Assembly: GCA_903838675.1 (NCBI GenBank)
Contig: CAILZI010000116.1
Location: 1 to 64,000, forward strand
Source of the DNA: an uncultured Verrucomicrobiota bacterium
GTDB lineage: Bacteria > Verrucomicrobiota > Verrucomicrobiia > Verrucomicrobiales > Verrucomicrobiaceae
Direction of reading: 5' to 3'
DNA length: 64,000 nt
Shown here: in pieces, positions 46,710-54,522 of the stretch
Position numbering within the stretch: position 1 is the stretch's first letter
How the letters are laid out: each line of letters opens with the position of its first letter
Program-made: the position numbers and the translations under genes
The notes under the pieces: model-generated
Database searches by the model: none
Told to the model about the DNA's origin: nothing
The model's input: only the letters and a program-made list of their open reading frames with translations

Positions 46710-48062
46710 ATGAAAAACAGTTCGTTCCTTAACATGCTGGGTGCATGCGTTCTTCCGCCGATTGTCGGCGTGGGGATATGCTGGGGTATCATCCATCTCT
46801 TGAAGAACCATGAAATGTTTCGAGTGGATGCGGTGACACCACCCATGACCACTGTTGGTAAAGTGCATCAGGCCAAGCGGAACGAGTCCAGTGCTGAGAT
46901 TCGGGCCGCATTGCCCGTTGATGCGACGTTCGACCCCGTGCGTGGGCTGCCAGTGCCGCCGGATGCGGAGAAAGCCGCCCTTAGACGTGCGGCTGAGGCA
47001 GCAAAGGCGAAGCCTGTCATTCCAGCGAAGCCTGCCAACTTGGAGCCAGTGATTGCAGTCGTCAGGAAGTCTGACAAACCTTCTCCTGCTATTGCCATTC
47101 AAGCACCTGTCTGGCATCCGATCCTTGACCCGATCGAGGACCATTGGACACGTCTGATGCCGCGCACGGATGCACTGCCGCAGGCCTACCAGGCCGTGAT
47201 CAACGATGATGCGGCTCATCTCGCGAAGATCATCGCAATGGGGATTTCACCCAATGAAATGACCTTGGGTGGTGATACGGCTCTGTGTGCCGCCGTGCGG
47301 ATGGGACGTGCGGATTGTGTGTGCGTCCTGGCGCTCTCGGGTGCGAATCTGAACCAGCCAGCTCATGAAAAGCAGCCGCCGATAGCGATTGCCTCACTGC
47401 GACGGAATGTTCCCGTGTTGAAGGCACTGCTGGACTTTGGTGTTGATCCCAATACGCGCTTCAATACGCCCATTCAGAAGCAGATCATTGACCGTTGTTC
47501 CATTAAAGATCTGCGCAATGCCATGGAAAGTGACCGTGGGATCACACCTCTGATCTGCTGCTCAGCACGTGGAGATGTGGAAGGCGCAGTCACTCTGATG
47601 CGTGCAGGAGGCAGGCCTGGAATGGGGACCACGCGCTATCATCGTTATCCCATCAATTTTGCCGCCACCCAGGGGTATCTTTTTCTCATGCGTGTCCTTC
47701 TGGGCCGTGATCCTGAGTCAGAGCCGGACACACTGGTGACCGTCGATCTCTCCAGTCAGCGTGCCTGGGTGACCAAACAGGGGCGCATCATCAACCACAC
47801 CATGGTTTCCACTGGACGTGAGGGCTATGGCACGCCGGCAGGACGCTATGTCATCACTGACAAGCACACCTCCCATATTTCCACGCTCTACCATGTGGAC
47901 ATGCCTTGGTTCATGCGCTTGAACTGCGGGGCCATCGGCCTGCACAGCGGCTATGTCACGGGCCAGCCCGCCTCCCACGGCTGCATCCGTCTCCCCTACG
48001 AGAAGGCGAAGGAATTCTTCGGTCAGGTAAGCGTGGGGGATGAGGTGGAAATTGTTTATTAA
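46710..48062 (+). CDS. Ankyrin-repeat L,D-transpeptidase (YkuD) fusion
   Basis: 450 residues. A signal anchor at about 10-32 (MLGACVLPPIVGVGICWGIIHLL) and a Pro/Ala/Lys linker lead to ankyrin repeats (about 155-330: AHLAKIIAMGISPNEMTLGGDTALCAAVRMGRADCVCVLALSGANLN; LKALLDFGVDPNTRF; GDVEGAVTLMRAGG). The C-terminal 115 residues are a YkuD L,D-transpeptidase: VTVDLSSQRAWVTKQGRII, GTPAGRYVITDK, and the catalytic block HSGYVTGQPASHGCIRLP with the active Cys. It crosslinks or trims peptidoglycan in the periplasm. It converges on mpl, sharing 4 nt. Confidence 0.9.
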   Translation: MKNSSFLNMLGACVLPPIVGVGICWGIIHLLKNHEMFRVDAVTPPMTTVGKVHQAKRNESSAEIRAALPVDATFDPVRGLPVPPDAEKAALRRAAEAAKAKPVIPAKPANLEPVIAVVRKSDKPSPAIAIQAPVWHPILDPIEDHWTRLMPRTDALPQAYQAVINDDAAHLAKIIAMGISPNEMTLGGDTALCAAVRMGRADCVCVLALSGANLNQPAHEKQPPIAIASLRRNVPVLKALLDFGVDPNTRFNTPIQKQIIDRCSIKDLRNAMESDRGITPLICCSARGDVEGAVTLMRAGGRPGMGTTRYHRYPINFAATQGYLFLMRVLLGRDPESEPDTLVTVDLSSQRAWVTKQGRIINHTMVSTGREGYGTPAGRYVITDKHTSHISTLYHVDMPWFMRLNCGAIGLHSGYVTGQPASHGCIRLPYEKAKEFFGQVSVGDEVEIVY

Positions 48063-49441
48063 AGCGTCTTTAGCAGCTTGTCGTGGATGCCGTCGAAGCC
48101 GCCGTTGCTGAACACCACAATTACATCTCCGCTGCGCGTTTCCTGTTTCAGGCGGTTGACGATAGCGTCGGTGCTGGCTTCGAACCAGCAGGGCTTGCCA
48201 CGCGCAGTGACTGATTGAGCCACCTTGGCGGTGTCCAGGCGTTGATCTGCTGCCACTTTCTCAGGATTGGCCACCGCTGCGATGACGGAGCCGTCGGCTT
48301 CGGTCAGCGCCTCGATCAATTCATTCTGAAGTACATTGCGGCGGCTGGTGTTTGAGCGCGGCTCAAACAGTGCCCACAGACGGCGTCCATCATAGCGCTG
48401 GCGCAGGCCTCGCAGGGTCTCGCGAATGGCGGTCGGATGATGACCGAAGTCGTCGATGATTGTGATGCCATGAGCGGTGCCACGCTCCTGCTGGCGGCGG
48501 CGAATGCCGCGGAAACTGATCAAGCCAGCGCGGATTTCATCGTCACTCAGGCCTGCAAAACGGGCCGCACACACGCACATGGCCGCATTGCGCGCATTGA
48601 ATTCGCCGACCATTGGCACTTCGAATGCACTGCCGTTGATTTCAAACTGGGTGGTCTCAGGAGTCACACCGGTGATCTTGATACGGAAATCGCAGTCCGG
48701 TCCCAGGCCCACTGTCTTAAGCGGTGCAGGGCACTTGGCACGCAGGGTGAGGCAGTTGGGATCATCACCATTGATCAGGACGAGGCCGTTGCGTGGCACG
48801 GTGTTCAGAAAGCGCTGAAACGAGAGCAGAATCTCGTCGAGGTCGCGGAAAATGTCCGCGTGATCGAACTCAATATTGTTCACGATTGCGCACTCCGGCA
48901 GGTAGTGCAGGAACTTGCTGCGCTTGTCGAAGTAGGCCGTGTCGTACTCGTCCCCTTCGATCACAAACAGGTCAGAATGGGTGAATCGTGCGCCCGATTC
49001 GAAATTCTCCGGTACGCCGCCGATCATGAAGCCGGGGTTTCTGCCTGCATGTTCATAGATCCACGCCAGCATTGTCGTTGTCGTCGTCTTGCCATGCGTT
49101 CCGCTCACCACAAAGCTGCGTTTGCCCTGAATCACTTCGCGCTTCAGCATCTCCGCCATGGAGACATACGGCAGCTTTTTCTCCAGCAGCGCTTCGAGTT
49201 CGGGATTGCCGCGAGAGATCGCGTTGCCGACCACATAGGAATCGGCATTCAGTGGCAGATTCTCTGGCTTGTAGCCTTCGGTCACAGTGATGCCTGCATC
49301 CCGCAGCACATCGCTCATGGGTGGATAGACTTGATTGTCAGAGCCGCTGATGGTGTGACCGAGGGCGCGCAACGCCACTGCAGTTGAACCCATTGCGGTG
49401 CCGCAGATGCCGATGAAATGAATGTGCTTGGGAGATGCCAT
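48059..49441 (-). CDS. mpl: UDP-N-acetylmuramate:L-Ala-gamma-D-Glu-meso-DAP ligase
   Basis: 460 residues from ATG 49441 (MASPKHIHFIGICGTAMGS); 49462 adds seven. It reattaches recycled murein tripeptide to UDP-MurNAc. GICGTAMGSTAVALRALGH is the N-terminal nucleotide fold, VSGTHGKTTTTTMLAWIYE the ATP P-loop, EFDHADIFRDL the central loop, DDFGHHPTAIRETLRGL the Mur-ligase His-rich block and FEPRSNTSRRNVLQ the UDP-sugar part. The C-terminal SNGGFDGIHDKLL is distinctive for Mpl versus MurC. Its 3' end overlaps the L,D-transpeptidase gene by 4 nt. Confidence 0.95.
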   Translation of the reverse strand: MASPKHIHFIGICGTAMGSTAVALRALGHTISGSDNQVYPPMSDVLRDAGITVTEGYKPENLPLNADSYVVGNAISRGNPELEALLEKKLPYVSMAEMLKREVIQGKRSFVVSGTHGKTTTTTMLAWIYEHAGRNPGFMIGGVPENFESGARFTHSDLFVIEGDEYDTAYFDKRSKFLHYLPECAIVNNIEFDHADIFRDLDEILLSFQRFLNTVPRNGLVLINGDDPNCLTLRAKCPAPLKTVGLGPDCDFRIKITGVTPETTQFEINGSAFEVPMVGEFNARNAAMCVCAARFAGLSDDEIRAGLISFRGIRRRQQERGTAHGITIIDDFGHHPTAIRETLRGLRQRYDGRRLWALFEPRSNTSRRNVLQNELIEALTEADGSVIAAVANPEKVAADQRLDTAKVAQSVTARGKPCWFEASTDAIVNRLKQETRSGDVIVVFSNGGFDGIHDKLLKTL

Positions 49442-49528
49442 GGAAAGGAGCGCACGGTTCAAATCCGAGCGCAGACGGGAACTAAAGCAGGGCTTTTTAC
49501 GCCCTGCTAAAAGAAAGTTCAGTTCGGC

Positions 49529-49560
49529 GGGAATAATCGCAGGGGCAGGAGCTCACACGT
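49529..49560 (+). promoter_or_regulatory. Putative ECF-sigma promoter of the bufferin operon
   Basis: GGGAATAATCGC begins at 49529, and CTCACACGT starts at 49552, 23 nt downstream. Counting GGAAT as the -35, the spacer to CTCAC is 17 nt, a normal ECF geometry. The same two-part motif with the same 23-nt offset occurs at 52130 before the sigma gene. It is 98 nt upstream of the precursor ATG. The -10 assignment is inference. Confidence 0.6.
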
Positions 49561-49626
49561 TGCGATGGCTCGAATCCCCGCAGCCTGCCAGAACTAACAA
49601 ACAAACCAAAGTACACCACACCTACC

Positions 49627-49887
49627 ATGAGCACCAAGCACATCATCGCCGCCGCCGCCTTCACCGGTCTCCTTTCTGGCGCCTACGCCGCGCAGACCAC
49701 CAGCACCCAGAAGGCCGCCAGCCTCGGCGTCTCCATTGAAAAGATGGCTGACAAAGGCCAGCACACCTGCAAGGGGCACAACGACTGCAAAGGGCAGGGC
49801 GGCTGCAAGTCCGGCGACAACGGCTGCAAAGGCAAAAACTCCTGCAAAGGCAAAGGCGGGTGCAACACCATGCCGAAGAAGCCCTGA
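49627..49887 (+). CDS. bufA2: BufA2-type bufferin precursor (Cys-rich RiPP)
   Basis: 86 residues. A Sec signal peptide (MSTKHIIAAAAFTGLLSGAYA) precedes a mature region with six Cys at 48, 54, 60, 67, 73 and 79, spaced 6-6-7-6-6. Each sits in a C-K-G/S-x-x-like repeat (CKGHND, CKGQGG, CKSGDNG, CKGKNS, CKGKGG), ending CNTMPKKP. Cys-rich CKG peptides followed by a DUF692 gene are bufferin precursors; the enzyme converts selected Cys to heterocycles, giving a copper-binding periplasmic peptide. It precedes bufB by 86 nt. Metal identity here is inferred from the family. Confidence 0.88.
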   Translation: MSTKHIIAAAAFTGLLSGAYAAQTTSTQKAASLGVSIEKMADKGQHTCKGHNDCKGQGGCKSGDNGCKGKNSCKGKGGCNTMPKKP

Positions 49888-49973
49888 TCAAAACCTCGCG
49901 GAGGGATGCAGACTGTCAGGGCTCCCCTGGCTGTCTGCGTTCCGCCCGATTGACAGCTTTGTCATTTACCCTC

Positions 49974-50816
49974 ATGCCTGCCAACACCCACAACGGTCAA
50001 ACCGACCTCGGCATCGGTCTCGGCCTCCGAGTGCCACATTATCGGCACATTTTGGAGAAAAAACCAGTCTGTGACTGGTTCGAGATCATCTCCGAAAATT
50101 TCATGGTCGATGGCGGCCGCCCGCTGGAGGTGCTGGACAGCATTCTGGAGCAGTACCGCGTCGTTCAGCACGGGGTGTCGATGTACTTTGGCAATGCCGA
50201 CCCGCTGAACCGTGACCATCTCAAAAAGCTCAAGCGGCTGGTAAAACGTACCAACACCCCCTGGCTCTCCGATCACCTCTGCTGGGGCAGTGTGGATGGA
50301 CGGTGCTCACACGACCTCCTGCCGATGCCCTACACCATGAGCGTGGCCAAACATACCGCCGAGAAGATCAGGCAGGCCCGCGATTTTCTTGAAGTGCCCA
50401 TCTGCGTGGAAAATGTAAGCAGCTACGCCGAATTCACGCAGAACGAGATGACCGAATGGGAATTTCTCAATGAAGTCGTCGAGCACGCCGACTGCGGCAT
50501 CCTCCTGGATGTGAACAACATCTATGTCTCCTCCCAGAATCACGGCTTCGATCCCTTTGAATACCTGCGAGCCGTGCCGCACCACCGCGTCGGCCAGATT
50601 CACATCGCCGGTCATACGCGGCTCGACCACGTCCTCCTCGACACTCATGATCATCCCGTGCCCGACCCGGTCTGGGATCTGTACGCCGAAGCCATTCAAA
50701 ACTGCGGCAGCACTGCCACGCTACTCGAATGGGACGATAAAATCCCCAGCTTTGAAGACGTCCACGCCGAAGCGCTCAAAGCCAACCGCTACCTCCATGA
50801 GCACACACACGCCTAG
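49974..50816 (+). CDS. bufB: DUF692 MNIO-family RiPP maturase (BufB-type)
   Basis: 280 residues from ATG 49974 (MPANTHNGQTDLGIG); the frame's earlier start is spurious. The fold is a TIM barrel with iron ligands in HGVSMYFG, SDHLCW, VCVENVSSY-like ICVENVSSY, LLDVNNIYV, QIHIAGH, DTHDHPV and LEWDDKIP. MNIOs (multinuclear non-haem iron-dependent oxidases) modify Cys residues of a nearby precursor. The precursor is the Cys-rich gene directly upstream. The last 20 nt overlap bufC. Confidence 0.93.
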   Translation: MPANTHNGQTDLGIGLGLRVPHYRHILEKKPVCDWFEIISENFMVDGGRPLEVLDSILEQYRVVQHGVSMYFGNADPLNRDHLKKLKRLVKRTNTPWLSDHLCWGSVDGRCSHDLLPMPYTMSVAKHTAEKIRQARDFLEVPICVENVSSYAEFTQNEMTEWEFLNEVVEHADCGILLDVNNIYVSSQNHGFDPFEYLRAVPHHRVGQIHIAGHTRLDHVLLDTHDHPVPDPVWDLYAEAIQNCGSTATLLEWDDKIPSFEDVHAEALKANRYLHEHTHA

Positions 50817-51669
50817 CCAGCTTCGCACCAACGCCGATCTTCGCCAGCTTCAGCGCGCGATGGCTGCGGCGCTCATGCAGCCGCTCACACGCAAGGATGG
50901 CATGTCAGCCAGAACGCAGGTCGATTTCATCACGCCGAATGATCGCATGAGCGGATTCGAACGTCTCGAAATCTACGCCCGCCAGTATTGGTTTCGCCTG
51001 CTCGACTGCCTCTATGACGACTATCCTGCACTTCGCGTCTTTGTTGGAGAGCGACGCTTTCACAAACTTTGCCGAGACTATCTTGCGCAGCATCCCAGCA
51101 CTTCCTGGACTCTGCGCAACCTTGGCTCCGCACTCCCCGAGTTCATCACGGATGTTAAAGCGCGTGATGTTGCCCGCGTCGAATGGGCGCAGACGCTCGC
51201 CTTTGACGAGGCTCTGAAAAAGCCGCTTCGGATTGATGATCTCCTCGGCTCCGATCCCTCCACACTGCATCTGGGCCTTCAGCCCTGCGTCGTGCTTCTG
51301 CAGATTGACCACGCAGTCGATCACTTCATCACCGCGATGAAAAAAACCGACGCCGACGTGCGCGGCTCCGCCAGCCAGGCCATGTCCGAGGCCCCCAGCC
51401 GCGCCAAAGTCGCCAGAGCACCGAAATTAAAGCGCGAGTGCGTGCATCTGGCCGTTCATCGCCACGACAACCAGCTCTACTTCAAACGCCTTGTTCCGGA
51501 GTCCTTCGCCATGCTTGAGGCATTGCGGGATGGCCTCACGCTGGCGGATGCCATCGAGCTCGCCCTCGCCCAGGCCAGTCCGAACACCGACTGGCCCGCG
51601 CAGATTCGTGACTGGTTCACCGAGTTCTCCCAGCTCGGCTGGTTCACCCAATTTTCCCGTAAATCATGA
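50797..51669 (+). CDS. bufC: DUF2063/HvfC-like partner of the MNIO (BufC-type)
   Basis: 290 residues from ATG 50797, overlapping bufB by 20 nt. The N-terminal DUF2063 domain has LRQLQRAMAAALMQPL, GFERLEIYARQYWFRLLDCLYDDYPALRVFVGERRFHKLCRDYLAQHPSTSWTLRNLG, the family's helical signature. A C-terminal, winged-helix-like part of about 130 residues follows (HLAVHRHDNQLYFKRLVPESFAMLEALRDG). It delivers the precursor leader to BufB. The overlap fixes the start well. Confidence 0.92.
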   Translation: MSTHTPSQLRTNADLRQLQRAMAAALMQPLTRKDGMSARTQVDFITPNDRMSGFERLEIYARQYWFRLLDCLYDDYPALRVFVGERRFHKLCRDYLAQHPSTSWTLRNLGSALPEFITDVKARDVARVEWAQTLAFDEALKKPLRIDDLLGSDPSTLHLGLQPCVVLLQIDHAVDHFITAMKKTDADVRGSASQAMSEAPSRAKVARAPKLKRECVHLAVHRHDNQLYFKRLVPESFAMLEALRDGLTLADAIELALAQASPNTDWPAQIRDWFTEFSQLGWFTQFSRKS

Positions 51670-52124
51670 AACCCTGGACCCTAGCAAACACAATCCTCGA
51701 TCGTACCGCGAGTTATCTAACGGATCCCTTCCTCCTGGGCATCCGCCTCTACTGGGGCTGGCAGTTTTTTCAGACCGGGAACGGCAAACTCAGCGACATT
51801 AGCGTGCCTACCGCCTTCTTTACTGAACTCGGCATTCCTTTTCCACAGCTCAATGCCTACACGGCCGGATGCACAGAGTGCTTTGGCGGATTGCTGCTGC
51901 TTCTCGGCCTTTTTTCCCGTATCACCTGCGTGCCCCTCATTTTTACCATGCTCGTCGCCTACGGCACGGCGCATCGTGATGTTGTCAAAACGATCTGGTC
52001 GGATGCCGACTCCTTTGTATCTGCTCCGCCGTTCCTTTTCCTGTTAGCGAGCTTGATTGTTTTCACCTTTGGACCAGGCAGGTTTTCACTCGATGAGTGG
52101 CTGAAGCGGCGAAAAAAAGCCTAA
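51666..52124 (+). CDS. DoxX-family membrane protein of the bufferin operon
   Basis: 152 residues, four helices. LLGIRLYWGWQFFQTGNGKLSD and FFTELGIPFPQLNAYTAGCTECFGGLLLLLGLFSRI are DoxX hallmarks (R-L-x-x-G-x-x-F-x-x-x-G-x-x-K). CTEC, near residue 70, is not common in DoxX and could bind metal. It overlaps bufC by 4 nt (ATGA). DoxX genes are frequent in buf operons; the role is inferred to be membrane redox or partner function. Confidence 0.88.
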   Translation: MKPWTLANTILDRTASYLTDPFLLGIRLYWGWQFFQTGNGKLSDISVPTAFFTELGIPFPQLNAYTAGCTECFGGLLLLLGLFSRITCVPLIFTMLVAYGTAHRDVVKTIWSDADSFVSAPPFLFLLASLIVFTFGPGRFSLDEWLKRRKKA

Positions 52125-52129
52125 TTCGT

Positions 52130-52161
52130 GGGAATAAACGCCGCAGCCCCGCCTCCCACCT
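52130..52161 (+). promoter_or_regulatory. Putative ECF-sigma promoter for the sigma/anti-sigma pair
   Basis: GGGAATAAACGC starts at 52130 and CTCCCACCT at 52153, the same motif pair and the same 23-nt offset found at 49529 before bufA2. It lies 6 nt after the DoxX stop and 53 nt before the sigma ATG. Two copies in the same operon support autoregulation. Confidence 0.6.
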
Positions 52162-52182
52162 GCATATCCGCCCCATGAACTC

Positions 52183-52782
52183 ATGGAACTTGCCCTTCAT
52201 TTTGGCATTGAACTGCCCGCAACCCGCCCCATACCTCGACGCGTGACTGACGCCGTGCCCAGCTTTGAGCAGATTGTAGACGCCCATTATCAGGGGCTCT
52301 ACCGCTTCGCCATGAGCATGTGCAGGCGTGAGGCCACAGCACAGGATCTCGTGCAGCAGACCTTTCTGCAATGGGCGAAGAAAGGGCATACGCTGCGGGA
52401 CGCCTCGAAAGTGAAGACCTGGTTGTTCACCACGATCTACCGCGAATGGCTCGGCATCGCGCGCCGCGAGAAAAAATACGAAGAGGTCGAATTCGAACCC
52501 GACCAGCACGGTGCCACCCAGCACCACAATGAGGGCGAAAATCCCCGTGTGGACAGCGCCACGCTGCAAACCGCGCTCGAAGAACTCGAACCGAACTACC
52601 GTGCTCCGCTGGTGCTTTTTTACCTCAAGGAACTATCTTATCGGGACATCGCAGAGACTCTGGGGGTTCCCATCGGCACCGTGATGTCTCGCCTCTCTCG
52701 TGCCAAAGACAGCCTGCGCACCATTTTACGCCGCCTCGAAGACTCCGCTGCCTCCAACATCATCCCCCTATTTGCCTCGTGA
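52183..52782 (+). CDS. ECF-type RNA polymerase sigma factor
   Basis: 199 residues. Region 2 spans about 30-95 (FEQIVDAHYQGLYRFAMSMCRREATAQDLVQQTFLQWAKKGHTLRDASKVKTWLFTTIYREWLGIARR) with the sigma-2 fold. Region 4 spans about 130-185 (LQTALEELEPNYRAPLVLFYLKELSYRDIAETLGVPIGTVMSRLSRAKDSLRTILRR), a helix-turn-helix that reads the -35. No region 3 or C-terminal extension is present. It lies directly after the buf genes and overlaps the anti-sigma gene, so the pair probably controls the bufferin operon. Confidence 0.92.
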   Translation: MELALHFGIELPATRPIPRRVTDAVPSFEQIVDAHYQGLYRFAMSMCRREATAQDLVQQTFLQWAKKGHTLRDASKVKTWLFTTIYREWLGIARREKKYEEVEFEPDQHGATQHHNEGENPRVDSATLQTALEELEPNYRAPLVLFYLKELSYRDIAETLGVPIGTVMSRLSRAKDSLRTILRRLEDSAASNIIPLFAS

Positions 52783-53510
52783 ACCGCGAAGAAGCCAGAC
52801 TCGAACTCGACGCCACGACGCTCCGCCCGCAGGATGCGTCGCCGGAGGCGCGTGCGATGGTGGAAAGCGATCCCGAACTTGGCGCATGGCTGAAGCAACG
52901 CACCGCGTTTGATGAACAAGTCGCGGAGGCTTTTGCGTCATCCATTCCAGCGGGCCTACGTGAGAGCATTCTGCAAAATGCCAGGCGGCCCGTCAAACGT
53001 TCCATTCGCTGGATTCTACCCACGCTGGCAGCAGCAGCTGCTGCTGCGGTGGTAGTCGGCTGGACGATGCTTTGGCCGGTGAGCAGCAGCATGCCTGGAT
53101 GGCAGGCTGAGTCGCTCGCCGCCGTGACGAAAGTCGAGTATGGTATGTCCAAGGTCGATCACCTGTCACGAGACTTCGAAGCCATCAAAAAGATGCTTGT
53201 TGCTGACAAATCTCCGACGCCGGTTCGCCTGCCTGGCACGGTGGGGACGATGCCCGTGCTGGCCTGCAAACGCATCCAGGTCGCGGGTCATGCCGCATCC
53301 ATCATCTGCTTTGAGATTGAGCCCGGCAAAGAGGCGCATCTCGTGGTGGTGGACAACACCGGTCTCTCCGAACTGCCACCGCAGCTGCAGCCGCAGTTCA
53401 AAACCAGCAAAAACTGGAACATGGCGAGTTGGAGCGATGGCAGTCAAACTTTTCTACTTGCCACCAGAGCGGATGAAGCGGCGCTGAAAAAGCTGTTTGG
53501 GCTGGCTTAA
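52779..53510 (+). CDS. Membrane anti-sigma factor-like protein
   Basis: 243 residues from GTG 52779, overlapping the sigma stop by 4 nt (GTGA). The cytoplasmic N-terminus (about 1-72) is helical and acidic (EARLELDATTLRPQDASPEARAMVESDPELGAWLKQR), suitable for binding the sigma. One helix at about 77-100 (WILPTLAAAAAAAVVVGWTMLW) crosses the membrane; a 140-residue periplasmic domain ends with FLLATRADEAALKKLFGLA. No zinc-binding HxxxCxxC is present. The periplasmic part could be the stress sensor. Confidence 0.85.
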   Translation: MNREEARLELDATTLRPQDASPEARAMVESDPELGAWLKQRTAFDEQVAEAFASSIPAGLRESILQNARRPVKRSIRWILPTLAAAAAAAVVVGWTMLWPVSSSMPGWQAESLAAVTKVEYGMSKVDHLSRDFEAIKKMLVADKSPTPVRLPGTVGTMPVLACKRIQVAGHAASIICFEIEPGKEAHLVVVDNTGLSELPPQLQPQFKTSKNWNMASWSDGSQTFLLATRADEAALKKLFGLA

Positions 53511-53622
53511 AGCCACTCGAACCAGTTACGCCCTTTTGCCAGCACGCAGAGATGCAGAATCCATCTCATCGACGACCAGCGGCGGATATATAGGCCAGTT
53601 CTCAAAAAGCCTGTCACATTGC
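53511..53622. other. Intergenic stretch after the anti-sigma gene, no gene seen
   Basis: Contains no family-like frame. It continues into the palindrome at 53623 and so is likely 3' untranslated sequence of the bufferin transcript. Confidence 0.5.
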
Positions 53623-53725
53623 CCGGCGGCGGAGCGGCCCCATTGGCGGTGTCGAGCGCTTGCCTGTTATTTCCAAATAGCAGGCGGCGCACTCTCCTTG
53701 CTAATGGGGTCGCTGCGCTCGCCGG
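53623..53725 (+). repeat. 103-nt near-perfect palindrome (extended hairpin)
   Basis: The two arms pair over almost their whole length around a 2-nt centre at 53673-53674. The inner stem, 53662-53672 with 53675-53685, is 11 bp. The next long stem, 53633-53647 with 53700-53714, is 15 bp; an outer stem continues to 53623/53725. Most mismatches are G-T on this strand (for example 667/680, 645/702, 637/710), which are tolerated as G-U in a plus-strand RNA but not in the opposite one. It follows the anti-sigma stop by 112 nt. A TCAAAA...TTTTGA hairpin (53727-53747) with a T-run comes next. Confidence 0.75.
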
Positions 53726-53760
53726 ATCAAAAGGACATTCTTTTTGAAAAGCAGTCTATC

Positions 53761-54522
53761 TCACAGCCTGTTGAGGAGCTCGGTCTTTTTGGCGACGAAC
53801 TCATTGTCCGTCAGGATCCCGGAGTCGCGCAACTGCCCGAGCTTTTCCAACAAGCTCATGACGTCAGATGACCCCTGGCTGGGCAAATAATTCTGTTGAA
53901 CGGGCGGCGATAGCGGCGGTTGGAAGTGGGAAACGGGAGGCTCCGCGAAATTGTTCGAGGGAACCGGCAGCAAGCCAGGTCCGGAGATCAGGGGCAGGCC
54001 GAGTGTGGAAATAGTTCCGAATTGGCTGCTGAATGTGAGCGACGTGTTTCCTCCCTGCTGCTGGCTCACACCGCTGATCTGGTGGTTCAGAGTATTGAAG
54101 ACAGTGACTTGCCCGTCTCGCTCCACCACGAGCCGCTGAGTTTGGGGGAAAAACGCGTAGCGGATGTTGTTCTGCGATCCGCTGCTGGAGGGAGAACCAA
54201 GGTCACCAGGCCACCAGTTGTTGCCACCAGACTTGCCTTGCGCCGCCGGTGGAAACATCTGCGTGCTGGCCAGTGCATTGGCGAGTTCACCGCACAAGTT
54301 GTTAACGGTGTTCTTCAGGCCACAATTGAACATGTCGCCGACCATGGTCATTCCGCCTCGCATCCACTGGCCGCTTCCCAGTTCTGGACAGCTGAACTGG
54401 GCCATGCTGCCGCCGCCCATGTTTACGGATACGAGCATCCGCACGGCGGAATCGAAGCTCAAATTGTAGCGACGGGAAATGTCGCTGATGATATTTTCTC
54501 CCGCAGGGGTGAGTTGTTGCAT
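53761..54522 (-). CDS. SHOCT-domain protein with polypeptide-rich middle
   Basis: 253 residues from ATG 54522 (MQQLTPAGENIISDISRRYNLSFD); the extension to 54606 is unlikely. The N-terminal 85 residues resemble a known family seen with SHOCT (QLTPAGENIISDIS, MAQFSCPELGSGQWMRGGMTMVGDMFN). The middle is Ser/Gly/Pro-rich and low-complexity. The C-terminal 35 residues are a SHOCT motif (VMSLLEKLGQLRDSGILTDNEFVAKKTELLNRL). SHOCT helices are a common oligomerisation or membrane-association tag. Convergent with the bufferin operon. Confidence 0.83.
   Translation of the reverse strand: MQQLTPAGENIISDISRRYNLSFDSAVRMLVSVNMGGGSMAQFSCPELGSGQWMRGGMTMVGDMFNCGLKNTVNNLCGELANALASTQMFPPAAQGKSGGNNWWPGDLGSPSSSGSQNNIRYAFFPQTQRLVVERDGQVTVFNTLNHQISGVSQQQGGNTSLTFSSQFGTISTLGLPLISGPGLLPVPSNNFAEPPVSHFQPPLSPPVQQNYLPSQGSSDVMSLLEKLGQLRDSGILTDNEFVAKKTELLNRL

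Follow-up and report, generated by a model that had tools for sequence, protein, structure and literature searches.

The window analyzed here, 64,000 nt of contig 116 (CAILZI010000116.1) from the 7.09-Mb draft genome of a freshwater Verrucomicrobiota bacterium of a Prosthecobacter-like genus, contains a bufferin-type operon that encodes a Buf2-like precursor (bufA), an MNIO (DUF692) maturase, a DUF2063 partner and a DoxX-type membrane protein, followed by genes for an extracytoplasmic function (ECF) sigma factor and a membrane anti-sigma protein. Our analysis indicates that this operon probably belongs to the regulon of the neighboring sigma factor, and that the regulon as a whole would protect the cell envelope against copper and against the oxidation of thiols and methionines. 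This sigma factor very probably drives the bufferin operon, because the same predicted promoter motif precedes both bufA and the sigma gene, even in genomes that do not keep them side by side, and in related genomes also doxX, msrA, msrB, msrP and dsbD. The sigma/anti-sigma pair is not private to the operon, since it is also present in genomes that have no bufferin genes.

All six genes lie on the plus strand (Table 1), with the three overlaps that an earlier note on this DNA had reported, namely 20 nt between the MNIO and DUF2063 genes, 4 nt between the DUF2063 and DoxX genes, and 4 nt between the sigma and anti-sigma genes. Gaps of 86 and 58 nt separate the precursor from the MNIO gene and the DoxX gene from the sigma gene, respectively. 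The recognition of a bufferin-type operon in a Verrucomicrobiota genome was confirmed by family models, as the BufB-type MNIO, DUF2063 and DoxX proteins all score over the respective cut-offs. The six-gene order is not due to chance, as it recurs in nine more members of the genus and outside it in Verrucomicrobiota of other families. Predictions of sigma-70 type promoters and terminators in the region 49400-53800 were not above those in shuffled sequences, and thus we do not claim a terminator between doxX and the sigma gene.

Promoter motif and predicted regulon

The motif GGAATAA-N15-CTCNYA has exactly three matches in the 7.09-Mb genome: at 49530 upstream of bufA, at 52131 upstream of the sigma gene, and at C68:39401, 49 nt upstream of a gene for a secreted DsbD-like protein with DsbD_N, DsbD_TM and thioredoxin domains. 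A copy with one mismatch lies 44 nt upstream of msrP (C189:16361), the orthologue of which in genome G003 scores 446 bits against NF003767 (cut-off 207). The genus-wide search for exact matches in 39 genomes returned about 86 sites, compared with 14 for a reversed-pattern control. In the form GGAATAA-N15-CTCNCA, the motif is located approximately 53 nt ahead of the sigma start codon in most genomes of the genus, with or without bufferin genes, and approximately 97 nt ahead of bufA. The predicted promoter of the sigma gene in the window sits within the 58-nt gap that follows doxX.

A matrix was trained on the sigma-gene promoters and scored on the upstream regions of orthologous genes at a threshold of p<0.002. 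Sites were recognized upstream of bufA in 8 of 10 genomes; for the gene of the DsbD-like protein the figure was 21 of 29, and for msrP 11 of 14. At the two remaining bufA loci of the genus, the motif fits if its spacer is lengthened or shortened by one base.

Several further genes were observed behind sites of this type. A possible further member of the regulon is a thioredoxin reductase gene in G015 (L134:3925-4932), which begins 37 nt from the motif start and scores 381 bits against TIGR01292 (cut-off 343). A 126-aa, secreted-looking, Cys-rich protein without a meaningful family assignment is encoded behind an exact motif in G033 (L129:3305-3685). Directly upstream of a paralogous sigma/anti-sigma pair in G033, G018 and G017 (L082, L083 and L084) there is an open reading frame for a Cys-rich, lipoprotein-like peptide of about 40 aa, and in G018 this small frame has the same promoter motif upstream (C8:273094), which links a further Cys-rich peptide to the sigma family. 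The dsbD-like genes of genomes outside the main sigma clade (for example at L168, L169, L170, L173, L176 and L178) have the -10 element CTCGTA in place of CTCYTA or CTCYCA, which hints at a related sigma factor with slightly different specificity.

Distribution of the operon and its regulators

Within the genus, a full-length MNIO gene is present in 10 of 35 genomes, the same ten that have a precursor gene, and a C-terminal MNIO fragment was found in one more. The sigma factor has orthologues of at least 68% identity, accompanied by anti-sigma partners, in 25 of the 35 genomes; the pair therefore occurs in 14 genomes without bufferin genes and in one that retains a relic. The locus has a conserved frame, in which a YkuD gene and a divergent Mur-ligase-like gene are followed by the optional bufA-MNIO-DUF2063-DoxX block, the sigma and anti-sigma genes, and MetE-like and Der-like genes (the flanking names come from reading the sequences, except for YkuD, which is a family match). 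In the window, the YkuD gene (46710-48062) encodes an ankyrin-repeat protein fused to an L,D-transpeptidase domain, and it is conserved beside the locus. In eight bufferin-less genomes the sigma gene directly follows the Mur-ligase-like gene at a distance of about 95-135 bp. Incomplete assembly as the cause of the missing bufferin genes was rejected for these eight genomes, where the two genes are contiguous. Genome G001 has an internal deletion that joins the -35 region of bufA to the terminal portion of the MNIO gene; its DUF2063 gene is truncated and its DoxX gene is gone, and the sigma and anti-sigma genes are intact.

Individual loci depart from this scheme. In G017, the motif was not found before the sigma gene and the likely sigma start overlaps doxX, so that expression of the pair there seems to rely on the promoter of bufA. 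In G016 (L021:5853-6929), doxX and the sigma gene are some 1.1 kb apart, with other DNA in between and the sigma promoter at its usual distance. At another locus (L201:3643-9723), bufA is present twice. The second copy, which shares 94% identity with the bufA of the window and has its own motif, stands directly before a sigma gene that lacks its usual promoter; this copy follows a secreted DUF255/thioredoxin-like gene located behind doxX.

Across 387 sampled Verrucomicrobiota genomes, 33 have an MNIO over the cut-off. Among 20 of these loci that were fetched, the bufferin operon is flanked by a sigma and an anti-sigma of the same protein families in G076, G196, G141, G131 and G119, and three more have weaker ECF matches beside the operon. 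The order DUF2063-DoxX-sigma-anti-sigma is also present in a Phragmitibacter metagenome-assembled genome. Most of the linked loci outside the genus have the motif before bufA. An exact scan of 16 genomes from other genera and families gave 22 motif matches and none for the control, and 18 of the 22 precede bufA (5), doxX (5), the sigma gene (3), secreted msrA (2), msrB (2) or dsbD (1). In G222, G326 and G128, the sigma pair is located away from the bufferin operon and retains the motif, and bufA or doxX carries it likewise. These three genomes provide the strongest evidence for a single regulon that includes the sigma and the operon whether or not they are linked. The anti-sigma profile matched 24 of the 33 genomes with MNIO and 65 of the 387 overall (Fisher p 5e-14, uncorrected for relatedness).

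Sigma factor and anti-sigma protein

The sigma factor scores 91 bits against TIGR02937 (cut-off 42.9). Its partner matches only models below their thresholds, DUF3379 (27.6, cut-off 33.2) and NF052375 (23.5, cut-off 100), and a Pfam scan for NrsF (DUF1109, PF06532) gave no match in it. An AlphaFold2 model built from 22 sequences (mean pLDDT 83) has N-terminal helices (residues 3-68), a single transmembrane helix of low confidence (82-98), compared with six in NrsF, and a confident periplasmic alpha/beta domain. The system is thus not of the ECF16/SigF-NrsF type, its anti-sigma being of another family.

The residues C163, C177 and H187 are invariant in all 27 anti-sigma homologues, including paralogues of about 25% identity, and the set is kept in seven loci outside the genus clade, other families included (one with an insert). 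In the model, which gives strand positions only, they fall on the consecutive strands 160-168, 171-181 and 184-192. The best structural matches of the periplasmic domain are the C-terminal domains of RseB and MucB. Foldseek placed RseB at the top (E 0.009, prob 1.00), and VIA comparisons with RseB and MucB gave Z 7.4-7.7 over 87-96 residues at 3-6% sequence identity. The best VIA row (Z 7.7, 89 residues, root-mean-square deviation 3.2) is below the guide value of Z 8; the next rows were 1vr8 (Z 6.1) and others at about 4.5. Searching the anti-sigma profile by sequence against solved structures produced no match up to E 1.

We infer that the Cys-Cys-His set may sense directly, in parallel to the two functional cysteines of NrsF. 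A broader proposal is that these proteins form a separate Verrucomicrobiota anti-sigma family, in which the RseB-C-like periplasmic domain reads copper or thiol oxidation directly and controls bufferin, DoxX, DsbD and Msr as one phylum-wide regulon; we put its probability a little under one half. Most of the anti-sigmas at L066-L075, which come from bufferin-less genomes of the genus, have extra periplasmic cysteines (CPCP at about 145-148, and others at about 199 and 206) that are absent from the anti-sigmas of the bufferin-positive clade.

Comparison with known systems

A tie between stress-linked ECF sigma factors and bufferin-type clusters is already known in Proteobacteria (PMC3511200, PMC7907618). 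In Caulobacter, SigF-NrsF controls two DUF2282-type operons, one of which it adjoins, and YedY/MsrP; the regulon genes in Caulobacter crescentus are CC3252-CC3257, CC2905-2907 and CC2748 (PMC3511200). The present system is similar in combining an ECF sigma and a membrane anti-sigma with two cysteines, functional in NrsF and putatively so here, beside a precursor-DUF692-DUF2063-DoxX operon, in having MsrP/YedY in the predicted regulon, and in the motif common to the sigma gene and the operon. The Caulobacter system has a Buf1 precursor (DUF2282), a six-helix NrsF, the motif GTAACC-N16-CGAA, and no DsbD among its eight genes, whereas here we find a Buf2-like precursor, a single-pass anti-sigma with the Cys-Cys-His set, a different motif, and DsbD in the predicted regulon.

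In Haemophilus influenzae, the targets of RpoE2-HrsE under hypochlorite include MsrAB and a COG3767/DUF692/DUF2063/DoxX operon (PMC7907618). As in this system and in Neisseria SigE-MseR, the sigma factor described here would drive a periplasmic methionine sulfoxide reductase together with a DoxX/DUF692/DUF2063 operon, which there includes the COG3767 periplasmic protein (PMC7907618). However, the Haemophilus operon is located away from the sigma gene, HrsE is a 67-aa cytoplasmic anti-sigma, and the phylum is different. A Brucella system of the ECF16/NrsF type has been tied to hypochlorite resistance and MsrPQ homologues (PMC8315932).

A 2025 survey found sigma/NrsF genes in Buf1 clusters and not in Buf2 clusters (PMC12452194). 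The operon in the window is like the Buf2 clusters in its precursor with six cysteines and a signal-peptide-like N-terminus, its MNIO, its DUF2063 protein and its DoxX protein, but the Verrucomicrobiota Buf2-like clusters, unlike those surveyed, come with a sigma/anti-sigma pair, and the anti-sigma is of another family. The single-pass topology and the moderate fold match of the periplasmic domain also recall RseA-RseB of E. coli and MucA-MucB of Pseudomonas, although here the domain with this fold match is part of the anti-sigma polypeptide and bears the invariant Cys-Cys-His set. The best reading of these comparisons is by analogy with Caulobacter SigF-NrsF and Haemophilus RpoE2-HrsE, such that bufferin would be one output of a regulon for envelope thiol and methionine repair.

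Alternative explanations

The persistence of the pair at this locus, under its own promoter, in many genomes without bufferin genes would suit a merely coincidental neighbor of an operon that something else controls. We consider this very improbable, since an exact motif of the sigma type lies before bufA in the window, in its genus clade and in further families, far above control, and is found before bufA in G017 with a spacer shortened by one base; chance adjacency was also rejected because the linkage recurs in several families. The opposite view, implied by the words "its own" and "self-contained" in the earlier note, is that the pair was gained together with the bufferin operon and has no other target. 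The single strand, the tight spacing, the shared motif, the same six-gene block in other families and the apparent promoter dependence in G017 all fit this view, and the in-line arrangement itself stands, with the pair codirectional. Nevertheless, exclusive ownership is improbable: the pair is far more widespread in the genus than the MNIO gene and persists both in the 14 bufferin-less genomes and beside the relic, the sigma gene has a promoter of its own, the motif also precedes dsbD-like and msrP genes elsewhere in the genome, and other families separate the sigma gene from the operon with the motif unchanged. As for origin, repeated independent insertion of a bufferin cassette beside a resident sigma gene is unlikely, in spite of the three separate places that bufferin-positive loci occupy in the sigma/anti-sigma tree and the similarity of G017 to this clade, which is 78% for the precursor and 84% for the MNIO but 41% for the anti-sigma. 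The MNIO tree groups this genus with G017 and G119 (support 100), the same DoxX-sigma-anti-sigma junction is found in the genus clade, G017, Phragmitibacter, G119 and loci of other families, and G001 represents a loss caught in the act. Because of the MNIO grouping and the junction common to several families, the data favor a long-standing linked unit from which the bufferin genes were lost several times.

The nature of the signal is a separate question. That the sigma factor responds to oxidants (hypochlorite or other reactive chlorine or sulfur species) and not to copper, with bufferin induced as oxidants release copper or damage envelope thiols, seems to us evenly balanced between true and false. 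The co-regulated MsrP, MsrA, MsrB, DsbD and, once, thioredoxin reductase point to oxidants, as do the hypochlorite responses of Haemophilus RpoE2 and Brucella ECF16, and two cysteines on neighboring strands would suit a redox switch; however, the invariant histidine and the bufferin itself suit copper equally, and Caulobacter SigF was studied through chromium and cadmium.

Several observations weigh against the assignment of the bufferin operon to a copper- and oxidation-related regulon of this sigma factor. The only relevant family match of the precursor, BufA2 NF050166, is below its cut-off (36.8 bits, E 3e-9; cut-off 60), and copper as a signal is suggested by the bufferin family alone. Only position and co-occurrence connect the motif with this sigma, and a paralogous ECF sigma could read some of the sites. 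The dsbD genes of genomes without this sigma factor carry a related motif, often with the -10 element CTCGTA. With one mismatch allowed, the 16 matches in the genome of the window are not above the 15 of the control, and the msrP site consequently rests on its orthologues.

Bufferin genes

The precursor genes of clade relatives are 93-99% identical to bufA. Other Verrucomicrobiota precursors scored 33-50 bits against the BufA2 model where they matched, and two had no match. The product is probably a modified, cysteine-rich, copper-binding peptide, by analogy with its family. The MNIO matches PF05114 with E 1e-106 and is alignable with solved structures of DUF692, TglH and MbnB, and a search of the DUF2063 protein against solved structures gave only weak matches, to designed repeat proteins. 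Seven genus relatives (z -3.2 to -5.6) and likewise G017 (z -4.8) have predicted stable hairpins at the place equivalent to that in the window, with sequences that in part are quite different; the hairpin after bufA may stabilize the precursor message or limit read-through.

Table 1. Features of the bufferin and sigma/anti-sigma locus in the window
Feature	Position	Strand	Characteristics
Predicted ECF promoter of precursor gene	49530..49557	+	GGAATAA-N15-CTCACA; exact genome-wide motif match
bufA, Buf2-like precursor	49627..49887	+	86 aa, 6 Cys, signal-peptide-like N-terminus (by reading)
Predicted intercistronic RNA hairpin between precursor and maturase	49896..49949	+	-42.1 kcal/mol, z -5.7
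bufB, MNIO (DUF692) maturase	49974..50816	+	NF050167 MNIO_BufB, 347.5 bits (cut-off 310)
bufC-type DUF2063 partner	50797..51669	+	PF09836, 68.9 bits (cut-off 27.2), E 5e-19
DoxX/HvfX-type membrane protein	51666..52124	+	NF050144, 81.8 bits (cut-off 80); PF07681, E 7e-20
Predicted autoregulated ECF promoter of sigma gene	52131..52158	+	GGAATAA-N15-CTCCCA; exact genome-wide motif match
ECF sigma factor	52183..52782	+	199 aa; PF04542 and PF08281 (regions 2 and 4) over cut-off
Single-pass anti-sigma-type membrane protein with periplasmic sensor-like domain	52779..53510	+	GTG start; sigma partner in relatives
Codons of anti-sigma C163, C177 and H187	53265..53339	+	Cys-Cys-His set

Proposed mechanism and significance

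In the mechanism that we propose, the anti-sigma would hold the sigma factor at the inner membrane until oxidation of C163 and C177, or binding of copper to the Cys-Cys-His set, changes the periplasmic domain or triggers cleavage. The freed sigma would then transcribe its own gene, the dsbD-like gene, msrP and the bufferin operon, in which the hairpin behind bufA would yield more precursor than maturase. The MNIO and its DUF2063 partner would modify the cysteines of the precursor, and the peptide, exported by means of its signal peptide, would sequester copper in the periplasm, with DsbD and the Msr enzymes repairing oxidized cysteines and methionines.

A promoter motif that can be tested, a predicted regulon and specific candidate residues for sensing emerge from these results, which also qualify the reported picture of Buf2 clusters as lacking sigma genes. 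Bufferins, described as copper-protective, would be tied in Verrucomicrobiota to envelope thiol and methionine repair, and the anti-sigma in charge is not related to the ones known in Proteobacteria. A bufferin-type operon and methionine sulfoxide reductase under ECF control now occur in combination with anti-sigmas of several kinds (NrsF, HrsE/MseR and, by prediction, the present one), and this suggests a physiological connection between the two functions.

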